From Oscillospiraceae bacterium (GTDB lineage Bacteria > Bacillota_A > Clostridia > Oscillospirales > Ruminococcaceae), in contig JAFWUX010000004.1 of NCBI GenBank assembly GCA_017523995.1, positions 10,569 to 74,568 of the forward strand: a stretch of DNA of 64,000 nt, in the 5' to 3' direction. This document shows positions 28,416 to 32,697 of the stretch, one piece after another. The notes below the pieces were generated by a model. It was given only the letters and a program-made list of their open reading frames with translations, ran no database searches and had not been told where the DNA came from. The translations under genes were made by a program, and so were the position numbers. How positions within the stretch are numbered: position 1 is the first letter of the stretch; each line of letters opens with the position of its first letter.

Positions 28416-28455
28416 AAAAAGGATATGCCTTCCGTTCGGAGGACATATCCTTTTT
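28416..28455. terminator. Bidirectional terminator
   Basis: AAAAAGGATATG pairs with CATATCCTTTTT, with a second inner stem. It lies between the MITE and the convergent PurA-like gene. Confidence 0.85.
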
Positions 28456-28479: not shown

Positions 28480-29676
28480 TCAGGATGCCGCTTTTACCGC
28501 CGCAGGCTGAGAGATCACATCCGCAGCCGTTTCGCCGCTGACCTTGTACAGCATATCTGCTGCTGCCGCTTCGGCGAGATCCGCAGGCTGCAGCGTCCCT
28601 GCCGGACAGAGCACCAGACCGTTTGTCATATCCAGATGCGTGACGGCAACCGAGATGCGTTCACCCGCTGCGGTGTACCGTTTGTCCAGCGCGAGCGATG
28701 CCGCGAACGCAGGGAGATCGAACCAGCCGTACCGGAACACGCCCTGAAATTCATTCGGTGCGTTGGTCTTGTCATAGAGACCGTATGCCGCAGCCATATC
28801 GCCGGATTCCGTGTCCAGTCTGCCTGCGCCGTGACGGGTGAAAAACGATCTTGTCACATAGCAGACTTCCGTCTCGCGCTTTTCGAGCCTGTCAAGGATT
28901 GCGCGGATATTTTTCATGCCCGTGCTCGAAGGCGTCAGGTGCGGGAAGTAGTCCGTTCTGTCCTGATCGAGCAGAAGCCCCTGCGCGCCCTCAAAGACAG
29001 CCGTACCGTATGCTTCGATGATCTGTTCATCCGCGGCGGTGCACATGGCAGCCATCGCATACAGGTCATCAAGATAGTTTTCTGTCAGGTTCTCATTTGC
29101 AAGGATGTCCGCGAGTTCTGCTTTCGCGGCACCGGTGATGCCAAGTGCTTCTGCACGCTGCATGCAGTATTGTTCATTGATCCGGCGAACCGCACGCCGC
29201 AGCGTATCGCGGTCCGCTTTCAGCACAGAGTCATAATCCAGTGCGTACCGCTCATCCCTGCAGCGGACAATTGTCTCGAAGATGCCCACGCCGCAGCTGC
29301 CGTGACGGTTGTCTCCGCGCACGGTCTCGACAAACTGATTCAGCAGCATATCACAGGGCAGTGTGACCTTGCAGCGGCGGTCGATGAACACGTTTCCGAT
29401 GTCAGCCCCGAGTGTCAGCCGTTCCTTGGAAAAAAGCATCGGGTTCAGAATGAAATATTCGGAAAGATACGTATCTGCGCCGGAAAAGCTGCCCGAGCCG
29501 ATGTGGGAGAACACATGGCGTTTTCCATCTGCCGTGCAGACGGTATGCCCTGCCTGTGCGCCGCCGTTGCTTCTGATATTGATCACGCTGTCACCTGTGC
29601 GGCAGAAAAAATCTGTCATCAGGCCTTTGCCTTCGTCGCCAAAATTTGCACCGATTACCGCATATGCTTTTTTCAT
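28480..29676 (-). CDS. Divergent adenylosuccinate synthetase-like enzyme
   Basis: PurA joins IMP and aspartate with GTP. This 398-residue protein keeps the GTP loop GANFGDEGKG (~8-17), the AGHTV motif (~42), and a substrate loop FFTRHGAGRLDTE (~290), but is shorter than the usual ~425-430 residues and many conserved positions differ (for example THLDMTNGL for the KLDVLDGL-type guanine motif). It is the third gene of an operon with a VWA protein and a J-domain protein (9-bp gap to the VWA gene). It is therefore likely to be a specialised paralogue acting on another nucleotide or ligand. GAGGTGAG precedes the ATG. Confidence 0.8.
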   Translation of the reverse strand: MKKAYAVIGANFGDEGKGLMTDFFCRTGDSVINIRSNGGAQAGHTVCTADGKRHVFSHIGSGSFSGADTYLSEYFILNPMLFSKERLTLGADIGNVFIDRRCKVTLPCDMLLNQFVETVRGDNRHGSCGVGIFETIVRCRDERYALDYDSVLKADRDTLRRAVRRINEQYCMQRAEALGITGAAKAELADILANENLTENYLDDLYAMAAMCTAADEQIIEAYGTAVFEGAQGLLLDQDRTDYFPHLTPSSTGMKNIRAILDRLEKRETEVCYVTRSFFTRHGAGRLDTESGDMAAAYGLYDKTNAPNEFQGVFRYGWFDLPAFAASLALDKRYTAAGERISVAVTHLDMTNGLVLCPAGTLQPADLAEAAAADMLYKVSGETAADVISQPAAVKAAS

Positions 29677-29685
29677 ATTCTCACC

Positions 29686-30594
29686 TCAGAACCGGATGAT
29701 GCTGTTCAGAATATTTCGCTTCCGTGCCGGAAGACCGCCGAGCGCATTCCGGACAGCAAGCTGTGTATTGCCGTCCCACGAGTTGATGATATCCTCTTTG
29801 TCTCTGCCCGCAACGCATTCCAGCAGCGAGACGATGATCTCGGGGATTGCGTTGACATCCGTCACGGAGATTGCACGTTCGCCCATGAGTTCGCGCCACT
29901 TCGGCAGCTTAACCGTGCTCTCGCTGCGTCCGTCCATGACCATGAGGTGGAAGACATCGTAACGTCTGCTGACCTGTGCAAGCAGCGCTTCGGTGTTGAT
30001 ATCCTCGCTGACACGGTCGCCGAAGACCTTTTCGATCTCCCGGACAAGCAGCTGTTCCGGATAGCCGTCATCGCCGAGCGTGAAGATGACGCCCTTCTGC
30101 TGCCGCTTTTCCCATGCATCGGTTTTGGTTTTGTTCGCGGCAAGATACCAGACCAGCGGATAGCTCTCAAAGTTGTTTCCGCCGCCGCCCTGCTCGAACC
30201 ACAGTTCCGTCAGCTGGCTTGCAATGCGGATATCGGATTCAAACTGCGTGACCTGCAAAGGCGAACGGTCGCATCTGGAATCACCGACTGCGCAGAACAT
30301 GATCTGCGGGCCTTCCACCGGCTGGCGTTCGATGATATCCTTGACCATTTCGCCGAGGCGCTGCGCTGTGACATTCAGCAGATCGCTCATAGAACCGGTC
30401 ACATCCAGACCGATGATGATCGGCGTGGTGACGGGGTGATCTGCCGAATCAAGGCTTTCTCTGCATTTGATTTTCCGCGGATCGTATTTGTCATCGATTT
30501 TGGTTGCGCTGTAAATATCATTGACCCGCTTGCCGCTGATTCTTGCAGACGAATATTTTTTCCAGTCTGCTGCGCTCCATGCACCGTATCCCAT
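29686..30594 (-). CDS. VWA-domain protein of the PurA-like/J-domain operon
   Basis: Cytoplasmic protein of 302 residues with no signal peptide. The von Willebrand A domain (~58-275) starts with PIIIGLDVTGSMSD, a MIDAS variant (DxTGS instead of DxSxS), with later TLGDDGYPEQL supplying an acidic site. The N-terminus (~1-55) carries conserved aromatic and basic residues. Cytoplasmic VWA proteins of the TerY type act as metal-dependent assembly platforms with kinase-like partners, which fits the pseudokinase-like neighbour upstream. AGGAGG precedes the ATG. Confidence 0.85.
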   Translation of the reverse strand: MGYGAWSAADWKKYSSARISGKRVNDIYSATKIDDKYDPRKIKCRESLDSADHPVTTPIIIGLDVTGSMSDLLNVTAQRLGEMVKDIIERQPVEGPQIMFCAVGDSRCDRSPLQVTQFESDIRIASQLTELWFEQGGGGNNFESYPLVWYLAANKTKTDAWEKRQQKGVIFTLGDDGYPEQLLVREIEKVFGDRVSEDINTEALLAQVSRRYDVFHLMVMDGRSESTVKLPKWRELMGERAISVTDVNAIPEIIVSLLECVAGRDKEDIINSWDGNTQLAVRNALGGLPARKRNILNSIIRF

Positions 30595-30647
30595 AATCGT
30601 ACCTCCTAAAAATTCATGATATTGCAGCCTGTGTTTTCAGCGGGCTG

Positions 30648-31625
30648 TTAAACAGCCTCAGAAATATCAGGCAGTCTGACGTTCATTTGTGTGAATCTTC
30701 TTCCGCCGAAGCCTTCAAAGATCACCTGTTCCCATTTTTCCATTTCTTCATTTGCCGAGCCGCTGCAGATGCTCTCAGCAAAATCCTGCACTGCTTTGGG
30801 TGCATCGTCGGGGAATATGCGCCTTGCAATCGCTTTGACGCATTCAAGGTCGGTGATATGACATGCAGTTCCGTCTGTCTTTGTCAGAGCGGAAAGGCAG
30901 TCATATACGGTGGACTGCACGCCTGTCATTCTGCGCCCCTCCCTTGCTGCGAACCACCAGCCGCCGCCGACCCGCACGGTATGCTCCGCGGGGTCAATCA
31001 GGAGATTTTCCTCCGCGAGGCAGTTCCAGACGATTCCTTTCACCTCTGCGTAACAGCAGATGCCCAGAAGCCGCGAGATGATCCATGCGGCGTGCCGGCT
31101 GTCAAGCTTTCCGCCGTAGAAATCCAGCACCCGCGAGAGCGGAAGTTCGCCGGTTCGCTTGCAGGTCTCAATGAGGAGTCCGTCCTCGGTGCGGATCACC
31201 TGCGTGACCACCGGCAGGAATGCCTCCGCCTGCGCAAGAATCTGCTGCGGAAGATACTCTCTGAAAAACAGATCCGACCTTGCTTCGGAGCGGGTGAAGC
31301 AATCCACAAACTCCTCTTTCATCAGGAACCAGACCGCGTTTTCGCCGATATATTCCGTGCCGTATTCCTGTGTCAGCGCCATGAGATACCGGATCCCGAT
31401 TGCGCGGCTGCCGCACCGGAACAGTTTTTCCTGCGCGGTGTGCGCTTTTTTCAGTTTCCGGTACAGCTCGTTGATATAAGCGGAAACCTCCGGCGCACGC
31501 GGATCGCTGCATTTGTCCGGATGATATTTCAGCATCAGCGCAAGATAGATCGGCTGCGCAAGTGCCGGATCCTCAGGGAAAACATCCTTGCAGCATTTGC
31601 ATTTCAGAATGTCGGATATATCCAT
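30648..31625 (-). CDS. J-domain protein fused to a degenerate kinase-like domain
   Basis: Protein of 325 residues. The N-terminal ~65 residues form a J domain with the HPDK motif (MLKYHPDKC), preceded by a CKCC motif. The middle (~150-270) resembles the C-lobe of a protein kinase (LLGICCYAEVKGIVWNCLAEENLLID) but the catalytic HRD and DFG are replaced (WNCL, GGG), so it should be a pseudokinase. A J domain would recruit Hsp70. The ATG at 31625 follows GGAGGGGAG, and a promoter overlapped by an NrtR-type palindrome lies upstream. First gene of the operon. Confidence 0.78.
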   Translation of the reverse strand: MDISDILKCKCCKDVFPEDPALAQPIYLALMLKYHPDKCSDPRAPEVSAYINELYRKLKKAHTAQEKLFRCGSRAIGIRYLMALTQEYGTEYIGENAVWFLMKEEFVDCFTRSEARSDLFFREYLPQQILAQAEAFLPVVTQVIRTEDGLLIETCKRTGELPLSRVLDFYGGKLDSRHAAWIISRLLGICCYAEVKGIVWNCLAEENLLIDPAEHTVRVGGGWWFAAREGRRMTGVQSTVYDCLSALTKTDGTACHITDLECVKAIARRIFPDDAPKAVQDFAESICSGSANEEMEKWEQVIFEGFGGRRFTQMNVRLPDISEAV

Positions 31626-31641
31626 TGCATCTCCCCTCCTT

Positions 31642-31652
31642 GTGATAGAATC
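31642..31652. promoter_or_regulatory. Candidate NrtR half-site in the J-domain gene leader
   Basis: GTGATAGAATC, the exact reverse complement of the site at 31775-31785, lying 17 bp upstream of the J-domain start codon. Confidence 0.5.
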
Positions 31653-31701
31653 AAAATGATACGAACGGTGTCTAAAAAATGAACCGTGCTGATATCGTTT
31701 T

Positions 31702-31718
31702 GTTAGTATCATAATAAC
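31702..31718. promoter_or_regulatory. Candidate NrtR operator over the J-domain operon -10 box
   Basis: GTTAGTATCATAATAAC is palindromic at all but one pair of positions (apart from the centre) and overlaps the -10 box of the operon promoter, as expected for repression. Confidence 0.55.
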
Positions 31719-31739
31719 ATTATCAAGCGGGTTTGTCAA
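31711..31739 (-). promoter_or_regulatory. Promoter of the J-domain/VWA/PurA-like operon
   Basis: Minus strand: TTGACA (31734-31739), 17-bp spacer, TATTAT (31711-31716). Confidence 0.8.
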
Positions 31740-31774
31740 GCGTTTCGAGGTGAATTCTGTGTTATGCACAATTA

Positions 31775-31876
31775 GATTCTATCACGTTGATATTATCTAT
31801 GTGCAGCGTGTACAAACTTCCCGCAGATATTGACATTCGGGGCAAAGATGTGTTATGATGAATCAGATACTATCAC
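31775..31876 (+). promoter_or_regulatory. Candidate NrtR half-sites at its own promoter
   Basis: GATTCTATCAC (31775-31785), a related GATATTATC (about 31789) and GATACTATCAC (31866-31876) occur in the same orientation. The last falls just past the -10 box of the regulator gene, a position that would give autorepression. Confidence 0.5.
31830..31859 (+). promoter_or_regulatory. Promoter of the NrtR-type regulator gene
   Basis: TTGACA (31830-31835), 18-bp spacer, TATGAT (31854-31859). Confidence 0.7.
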
Positions 31877-31887
31877 TGGAGGTTCCT

Positions 31888-32697
31888 ATGAATTACGATA
31901 TTACAAAGTATGACAGACCGTCCGTCGCTGCCGATATTGTTGTATTTACCGTCCGCAAGGGCGAAAGCGAAAGCTACCGTCACCTTTCAAAACCCGTGCT
32001 TTCGGTGCTGCTTGTCCGGCGCACCGAAGAACCTTTTGAAAATATGCTCGCGCTCCCCGGCGGATTCTGCTGCCGCGAGGAGACAATCGAGGAAACTGCG
32101 TTCCGGAAGCTGAAAGAGAAAACCGGCGTGGACAGTCCGCCGCTTTCGCTGCTGTGCAATCTCTCCAAGCTCGGCAGAGATCCGCGAGGCTGGATCATCT
32201 CCTGCTGCTACTGGACTGTCATTGCGCACAACAGGGCAGCGCTCGGCAAAAACGCGGAATGGTTCGCGGTCTCGCTGAATGAGGACGGCGGAAAATATAC
32301 GCTGACCCTGACCGATGACAACGGCAGAGCATTTGTATCCGAGGTGCGGATTCATAATCCCAACGAGCTCTATAACCAGTCCGCAGAAGCCGAGATTCCG
32401 AAGAACAGTCTTGCGTTTGACCACGCCGAAATCATCGTCAACGCTCTGCTGAAGCTGCGCAGCAGTCTCGAAAAGCCCTATGCCGCGTTCAGACTTCTGC
32501 CCGAACGGTTCACGCTGACCGATCTGCAGCAGGTCTATGAAGCAATCCTTGACAGGAAACTGATCATGGCGAATTTCAGGCGCAAAATCACGCCGTATGT
32601 CGCGGAGACAGGCGGAATCGAGGGCGGCGCAGGACACCGTCCCTCTAAGCTTTTTGCGCCGAAGAAAGCGGCAGCCGATCCCGACTCCCCGCTCTGA
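31888..32697 (+). CDS. NrtR-type NUDIX/winged-helix regulator
   Basis: Protein of 269 residues. The N-terminal ~160 residues are a NUDIX fold (LALPGGFCCREETIEETAFRK) in which the catalytic RExxEE signature is degraded (RKLKEK), so it should bind rather than cleave ADP-ribose-like ligands. The C-terminal ~100 residues form a winged helix (FRLLPERFTLTDLQQVYEAI...RKITPYV), the NrtR arrangement. NrtR repressors control NAD synthesis and recycling and are released by ADP-ribose. The start is set by CTGGAGG before the ATG at 31888. It is divergent from the J-domain/VWA/PurA-like operon and shares repeated sites with it. Confidence 0.88.
   Translation: MNYDITKYDRPSVAADIVVFTVRKGESESYRHLSKPVLSVLLVRRTEEPFENMLALPGGFCCREETIEETAFRKLKEKTGVDSPPLSLLCNLSKLGRDPRGWIISCCYWTVIAHNRAALGKNAEWFAVSLNEDGGKYTLTLTDDNGRAFVSEVRIHNPNELYNQSAEAEIPKNSLAFDHAEIIVNALLKLRSSLEKPYAAFRLLPERFTLTDLQQVYEAILDRKLIMANFRRKITPYVAETGGIEGGAGHRPSKLFAPKKAAADPDSPL

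Follow-up and report, generated by a model that had tools for sequence, protein, structure and literature searches.

A conserved module of an NrtR-type regulator, a J-domain pseudokinase, a VWA protein and a PurA-like enzyme in bacteria and phages

We found that four neighbouring genes form a real, conserved module, in which an nrtR gene is divergent from an operon encoding a J-domain pseudokinase, a VWA protein and a PurA-like enzyme, and we regard it as an even call whether this is a dedicated NAD/ADP-ribose-stress module. In the window (the whole 64 kb stretch of DNA analysed, from a gut bacterium), the operon lies on the minus strand. The J-pseudokinase gene (30648..31625), whose product joins an HPD J domain to a catalytically dead protein-kinase fold, is followed by the gene for a cytoplasmic VWA protein with an intact MIDAS (29686..30594; D64-x-T66-x-S68 and D175) and by the PurA-like gene (28480..29676), whose product was identified using Pfam PF00709 (E = 1.8e-39), PHROG 1211 (205 bits) and an active-site comparison, and belongs to a subfamily without the aspartate-binding loop. 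A hairpin with a U tail 3′ of the PurA-like gene (28416..28455, minus strand; fold −21.5 kcal/mol, z = −5.26) is a probable terminator and was not picked up by the consensus scan. The nrtR gene (31888..32697, plus strand) encodes an NrtR-family, ADP-ribose-type repressor with a degraded Nudix box; its longest open reading frame begins at 31855.

The proposal of the initial annotation that the four genes belong together was borne out by other genomes, as the complete set was present at 36 of the 61 loci where the VWA gene has 3.5 kb or more of sequence on each side; NrtR was found at 41 of these well-covered loci and not at the remaining 20. Of 442 confirmed VWA loci, 80 were examined for neighbours. 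The PurA-like gene was beside VWA in 78 and the pseudokinase was present in 73, while NrtR was counted at 49, because the NrtR-profile match at one further locus (L032) is the Nudix domain of NadM and was left out. Furthermore, the distance trees of the VWA and PurA-like proteins co-varied (r = 0.934 over 85 members; the best of 200 permutations gave 0.128). The module is patchy, occurring in 1 of 299 genomes of the phylum and 2 of 100 of the family (the query genome is counted in both), and was also found in 21 plasmid records and in many phages. When 80 IMG/VR contigs with VWA were analysed, the VWA–PurA pair was nearly constant (78/80) and the kinase dispensable (32/80). Neighbouring frames were assigned by a greedy choice of the longest ORF, so shadow frames may occur among them. 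A literature search, with subscription papers largely outside it, revealed no description of the four-gene set, which is rare, conserved, common to other bacteria and phages and, as far as found, undescribed.

We then considered how the module may be regulated. The regulator contains both a Nudix domain and the NrtR winged helix (NUDIX and PF21906 above cut-off, the latter with E = 4.9e-19), and its full-length score against the NF050029 equivalog, 112 bits, is under the cut-off of 400. Four operator-like palindromes lie in the gap between the divergent genes and none elsewhere in the window. The central one (31775..31797) has two mismatches; another (31702..31724, three mismatches) covers the −10 element of a promoter-like site for the operon (31711..31739, minus strand, TTGACA-17-TATTAT), and one with four mismatches (31852..31874) covers that of a promoter-like site for nrtR (31830..31859, plus strand, TTGACA-18-TATGAT), both promoter-like sites being consensus matches only. 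The last (31644..31666, four mismatches) adjoins the ribosome-binding site of the J-pseudokinase gene. The operator pattern was drawn from 14 Ruminococcus nrtR gaps, and these same gaps contained at least four sites each and 74 in total, compared with a mean of 0.19 and a highest count of 2 in 100 mononucleotide shuffles. Outside the set from which the pattern was drawn, four sites were found in one gap (L021) and six in another (L023). In five R. flavefaciens genomes, 18 of the 24 operator sites were at the module. Among the six others, one was just 5′ of an nrtR2–NaPRTase pair, in strain XPD3002, and one preceded a nicotinamidase-like ORF; the vicinity of the other four yielded no NAD gene. 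Four of these genomes had one NrtR and the fifth had two. The distribution of operators and the NrtR counts in R. flavefaciens thus agree with the earlier assignment of the regulator, which appears to be dedicated and of the NAD type. NrtR relatives can control other pathways, including one for arabinose, according to excerpts of one report (PMC4666351). In the viral set, all ten NrtR-profile matches were NadM Nudix domains.

NAD genes had been described as absent, and this held for the window, where the queries used found none and no protein matched the Clostridium Adps-like or Namat-like proteins at E ≤ 1, but not for all relatives. An NAD gene was found at only 3 of 80 genome loci. At L032, nadM is directly 3′ of the PurA-like gene. 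In two Clostridium operons (L036 and L044) a single row contains nrtR, Prs/Adps-like, isochorismatase-fold, Namat-like, PARG, J-pseudokinase, VWA and PurA-like genes, the additions being Adps-, nicotinamidase-, Namat- and PARG-like. The Clostridium Namat-like protein scored 616 bits with 9w5x and 484 with 9ke8, the highest score among the remaining NAMPT chains being 209, and retains Arg40, an aromatic residue at 392 and Tyr396. On viral contigs, 12 of the 13 NAMPT-family genes found sit within 1.2 kb of the VWA–PurA block. The operators before NAD-salvage genes, the Clostridium operons and the NAMPT-family genes beside the viral pair together strengthen the link to NAD/ADP-ribose that the initial annotation had drawn. 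NARP1, an NAD+ reconstitution pathway of Adps and Namat according to excerpts of its description (PMC12774641), was rejected as a fixed partner of the module. Of 21 module genomes, 2 yielded a Namat gene, and of 80 viral Namat loci, 1 had the VWA–PurA pair within 10 kb; NAD reconstitution therefore does not require the module. On two more viral contigs (L120/L241 and L123/L224), Namat and the module are both present but separated by over 10 kb.

The initial annotation had also proposed stress or defence, and the defence part was not sustained. An anti-phage or abortive-infection system, triggered by ADP-ribose and using the PurA-like enzyme to make a toxic or signalling nucleotide, would suit the patchy spread, the plasmid records and the combination of a nucleotide enzyme, VWA and a dedicated repressor. 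However, none of the four proteins had a match in PADLOC-DB 2.0.0 better than E = 0.045. We also scanned 102 neighbouring proteins from loci L021–L080 (the nearest one upstream and two downstream; 27 of 129 omitted by choice) using PADLOC and Pfam, with no control set, and among the matches listed no family occurred in more than 3 of the 102. In favour of defence, three neighbours matched a MADS defence model and two carried DUF4062, which excerpts of a preprint report as an NADase defence family. Against it, many phages themselves bear the module, some beside NAD salvage, a pattern that fits a metabolic or counter-defence role. We consider defence unlikely.

To gain insight into the enzyme, we compared the active sites of the PurA-like members. 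Asp13, Lys16 and His41, which we take to be catalytic in PurA, were retained, each in 84 of 85 members, and Gln224 and Thr239 were also kept. The Arg303–305 loop, in which Arg303 and Arg305 presumably bind aspartate, fell in a gap in 85/85, and N38Q (83/85), T129C (83/85) and V273H (84/85) were nearly fixed. The retained residues and the NAD-type regulator could be explained by a second PurA supplying AMP for NAD synthesis at low NAD+. The missing loop and the near-fixed changes argue against this, as does an ordinary purA in 14 of 14 relatives' genomes, and we consider a second PurA quite unlikely. The relatives, from which all the support on this point comes, are also consistent with the earlier expectation that the PurA-like gene is not the sole PurA. 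PHROG 1211 and some phage records (7 among the 60 matches listed) carry the PurZ-type name ‘2-aminooxy adenylosuccinate synthetase’, which would imply base modification producing 2-aminoadenine-type precursors. Yet Asp13 is present in 84/85 members where the single PurZ compared has Ser, the score to NCBIfam PurZ (NF038379) was 36.5 bits, below the 300-bit cut-off, and cellular genomes carry the gene too, in places next to NAD genes. PurZ identity was rejected, and a PurZ-like role is very unlikely. The name in these records is not backed by the active site and should be read with caution. On the best reading, that of an NAD/ADP-ribose-stress module, the PurA-like protein would be a GTP-dependent nucleotide ligase of altered specificity, served by the VWA protein and the J-pseudokinase.

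The VWA protein has the MIDAS signature of the fold (DxSxS or DxTxS) and the third-loop Asp. When PDB sequences were searched with the VWA alignment, nothing matched at E ≤ 1. The HPD J domain of the window protein, a J domain already noted in the initial annotation, turned out to be a widespread part of the module, being present in 58 of 73 pseudokinases (38 of 60 matched PF00226 at E ≤ 0.01); nine of the 73 carry a zinc ribbon and six have neither. Hsp70 recruitment, also proposed initially, gained no support beyond the HPD motif, which the nine zinc-ribbon relatives replace. TerY-P triads consist of a VWA protein, an active kinase and a PP2C phosphatase, and the VWA gene here does adjoin a kinase fold, the basis of the suggested kinship with TerY-type phospho-signalling or stress modules. 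This kinship was rejected and we regard it as most improbable: the HRD Asp was absent in 59 of 60 pseudokinases (present in one), no DFG Asp was found in columns 220–221, placed by eye, across the 60, no phosphatase was among the recurring neighbour clusters listed, and viral loci keep the kinase far less often than the VWA–PurA pair. A mycobacteriophage kinase outside the 60-member set has an Asp at the DFG place.

On the reading as a NAD/ADP-ribose-stress module, NrtR bound to the four palindromes in the divergent promoter region would hold the operon off. Cleavage of NAD+ or release of ADP-ribose would then allow ADP-ribose or a related metabolite to free NrtR, a step that we infer from membership of the NrtR family. 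The VWA metal site may grip a client, with the J-pseudokinase delivering DnaK or acting as a scaffold, as their folds, MIDAS and HPD suggest. Using GTP, the PurA-like enzyme would activate a carbonyl of a nucleotide of the purine or NAD type, to which a nucleophile, not aspartate bound as in PurA, would be joined; this would restore a damaged or depleted nucleotide or yield a new one. The module would act alongside NAD+ salvage or reconstitution, whose genes share its row in some relatives. We tentatively suggest, as a possibility only, that the PurA-like enzyme has abandoned aspartate chemistry and acts on a nucleotide derived from NAD or ADP-ribose, and that a chaperone unit formed by the VWA protein and the J-pseudokinase assembles or protects the enzyme; it could, for example, re-aminate deaminated adenine in NAD or ADP-ribose, or make a new NAD-derived metabolite. 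If true, NAD+ repair would have a further, new branch that ADP-ribose switches on in bacteria and that phages have acquired along with NAD+ salvage. The module brings an uncharacterised subfamily of enzymes, together with a pair of chaperone-like partners, into the NAD+/ADP-ribose network that bacteria and phages contest.

The module resembles several known systems in part. NrtR-controlled NAD operons, reportedly described by Rodionov et al. in 2008, share the Nudix-winged-helix repressor and divergent promoter, but target NAD enzymes, whereas NrtR here faces the J-pseudokinase, VWA and PurA-like genes. PurA has in common with the PurA-like enzyme its fold family, the P-loop GDEGKG and the catalytic Asp and His; the latter differs in lacking the aspartate loop, in an altered IMP pocket and in a shorter C-terminal part. 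PurZ is likewise a PurA paralogue occurring in phages, but that of SH-Ab 15497 has Ser at position 13 instead of Asp. TerY-P and Ter modules (the latter from excerpts of PMC7824862) also combine VWA with a kinase fold, whereas in this module the kinase is dead, a recurring phosphatase is lacking and the partner is PurA-like. NARP1-type Adps and Namat genes stand in one row with the module in the two Clostridium operons and in viral contig L188, but differ from it in how seldom the two coincide. In excerpts of Iyer et al. (2022; PMC9503650), ARG-centred systems include a Nudix transcription factor and a vWA protein proposed as a peptide-binding chaperone, in an ADP-ribose context resembling that of the module, and neither ‘adenylosuccinate’ nor ‘PurA’ occurs in the main text. 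Those systems centre on an ADP-ribosyl glycohydrolase, whereas the module described here has the J-pseudokinase and the PurA-like enzyme.

In the window, the operon occupies 31625-28480 on the minus strand and encodes, in order, a J-domain and kinase-like protein (J-pseudokinase), a VWA protein and a PurA-like enzyme, with intergenic gaps of 53 bp and then 9 bp. The J-pseudokinase start codon was placed at 31625, which differs from that of the longest ORF, and the divergent nrtR gene on the plus strand probably starts at 31888 and not at its longest-ORF start. A consensus scan identified an operon promoter candidate at 31739-31711 (11/12 match to the sigma-70 consensus, 17-bp spacer), and fold analysis revealed a strong stem-loop followed by a U tract 3' of the last gene, a structure absent from the consensus-scan listing.

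Conservation was examined by profile searches around the best 80 of 442 confirmed VWA relatives in genomes. PurA-like genes were found in 78/80 loci, always within 214 nt after VWA, pseudokinases in 73/80 and NrtR in 49/80, the last count leaving out L032, a locus whose match was NadM. The loci lacking PurA-like were L062, cut by a contig end, and L070, which was not cut; of the seven lacking the pseudokinase, L016 and L069 were at contig starts and L023, L046, L049, L066 and L067 were not. At the pseudokinase's expected place in L049 (8352-9827) we observed a 491-aa ORF on the opposite strand, without Pfam match. Among the 61 loci with 3.5 kb either side of VWA, 57 had the pseudokinase, 41 had NrtR within 7 kb and 36 had all four genes, so that the neighbourhood proposed in the initial annotation does recur elsewhere. 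NrtR_WHD was present in 19/21 module genomes. Carriers, by record title, include Ruminococcus, Lachnospiraceae, Desulfosporosinus, Clostridium, Paenibacillus, Massilia, Competibacter relatives, Acetobacter, a melainabacterium and a Treponema MAG; the module is rare, with 1/299 phylum genomes and 2/100 family genomes, the query genome counted in both. Gene-tree distance matrices correlated with r of 0.79 to 0.93 (highest permutation 0.20; NrtR set including L032). Because related organisms share history, this shows that the module genes were inherited jointly, and contact between the proteins does not follow. In the literature searched we found no published description of the four-gene set, which is undescribed there as far as we found.

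We found that the nrtR gap carried at least four copies of GWTAWTATCANNNTGATAWTAWC (up to 4 mismatches, overlapping copies counted) in 14/14 Ruminococcus loci, the window included, the pattern having been derived from those same 14 gaps. The four putative operator copies of the window all lie at 31644-31874, with none elsewhere in the 64 kb and none in five crude window shuffles. Together the 14 gaps held 74 copies versus a mean of 0.19 in 100 mono-shuffles, and two gaps outside the derivation, L021 and L023, held four and six. At 2 mismatches, 18/24 sites in five R. flavefaciens genomes were at the module, and the reversed pattern gave 0 sites. One outside site (L201) is separated by 17 bp from the probable start of a second nrtR copy, after which comes nicotinate phosphoribosyltransferase, and another (L203) stands some 120 bp ahead of a nicotinamidase-like ORF (blastp E 1e-36 to the Clostridium protein); the other 4/6 had no match to the NAD queries nearby. 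The second NrtR was recovered by profile as well; in R. flavefaciens XPD3002 (L201:4754-6848) it stands directly before the transferase gene, with one operator-like site. This operator distribution, together with the sites before NAD-type genes, suggests that the NrtR is dedicated to the module yet of NAD type, as it looks from sequence.

NAD genes were found in 3/80 genome loci by the queries used, and the same queries gave none within the window at E < 0.1. Two Clostridium loci (L036 and L044) carry a row of nrtR, ribose-phosphate pyrophosphokinase-like, isochorismatase-fold (nicotinamidase-type), NAMPT-family, microbial PARG, J-pseudokinase, VWA and PurA-like genes, and L032 has a NadM gene directly after the PurA-like gene. 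The Clostridium NAMPT-family protein scored 616 bits to 9w5x, 484 to 9ke8 and at most 209 to other NAMPT chains, and its aligned Arg40, Tyr at 392 and Tyr396 agree with Namat clamp residues named in PMC12774641; from the residue numbering, we infer that 9w5x is the Namat of that paper. Three Lachnospiraceae MAGs have a DUF4291 gene between nrtR and J-pseudokinase (L033:5032-5601, L034:8378-8944 and L035:8378-8944).

The module also occurs on mobile elements. Searches yielded plasmid copies in 21 records and phage copies in 207 by VWA (188 Mycobacterium phages) and in 224 by PurA-like, including a few ordinary PurA in bacterial-looking records. In the midpoint-rooted VWA tree, read for topology only, Vibrio and Rhizobium phage proteins nest within the proteobacterial part and the mycobacteriophage protein stands beside that of a Rhodococcus plasmid. 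The pseudokinase profile matched four of the six phage and plasmid loci inspected; those of the Vibrio and Rhizobium phages gave no match. Among the 80 retained of 124 confirmed VWA relatives in IMG/VR, PurA-like was found in 78 and the pseudokinase in 32; in L125, L126 and L127 the PurA-like gene lies some kb off or on the other side. The place just upstream of VWA in phages is often taken by the pseudokinase or by a member of one of two Met-rich families, v3 (18 of 83 phage loci, two of them named phages) and v4 (16 of 83); one scanned example of each family (L139:9151-9807 and L176:9400-9999) had no Pfam match. By eye, TROVE/Ro60-like proteins were seen in seven phage loci (L132, L133, L120, L149, L082, L142 and L162) and SPFH/band-7-like proteins in five.

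NAMPT-family genes were present in 13 viral loci, and in 12 of these the gene lies no more than 1.2 kb from the VWA-PurA block (L161 by distance to VWA, where its contig ends); we also found NadM in 10, nicotinamidase-like in 5 and Prs-like in 2, raw counts that are not independent as many of the phages are related. Ten viral NrtR profile matches were rejected as regulators; they coincide with NadM and represent its Nudix domain. One locus, L188, has Adps-like, Namat-like, VWA and PurA-like genes in a row. In the reverse direction, among 80 of 220 confirmed viral Namat loci, a Prs-like gene was found in 74 and the module within 10 kb in only one, on the same contig as L188. A candidate for an NrtR-controlled NARP1 was seen on another viral contig (L242:956-5993), where an NrtR gene is followed in turn by nicotinamidase-like, Prs/Adps-like and Namat-like genes.

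Collectively, the regulator, its operators and the genes found nearby in Clostridium, R. flavefaciens and phages place the module in NAD/ADP-ribose metabolism. The defence role raised in the initial annotation is possible; the MADS and DUF4062 neighbours that would speak for it are few and too thin a basis. Any product assigned to the PurA-like enzyme is putative, and VWA and J-pseudokinase may serve this enzyme or another client.

As to whether the PurA-like enzyme is the sole PurA, a question left by the initial annotation, an ordinary purA was also present in 14/14 module genomes of relatives (in G014 the second match comprises two pieces of one frame). We aligned 85 module enzymes with 14 ordinary PurA, E. 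coli PurA and one PurZ, comparing positions by E. coli residue, among them the guanine-binding Lys331. Asp13, Lys16 and His41 were each retained in 84/85, Gln224 in 84/85 and Thr239 in 83/85, with Asn38 replaced by Gln (83/85), Thr129 by Cys (83/85) and Val273 by His (84/85), while Arg303-Arg305 is a gap in 85/85. The Lys331 position holds His (50) or Cys (32) and Asp333 was retained in 68/85, so that GTP use is likely, not certain. The Paenibacillus sp. J5C2022 gene (L050:10980-13289) has an intein-like insert at the AGH motif (PF14890 E 4.5e-7, below its cut-off), and one 596-aa PurA-like protein (P0285) has N- and C-terminal extensions. Some phage PurA-like genes (L081, L083 and others) are labelled '2-aminooxy adenylosuccinate synthetase', probably a transferred PurZ name; the one PurZ compared has Ser at position 13, where 84/85 module enzymes have Asp.
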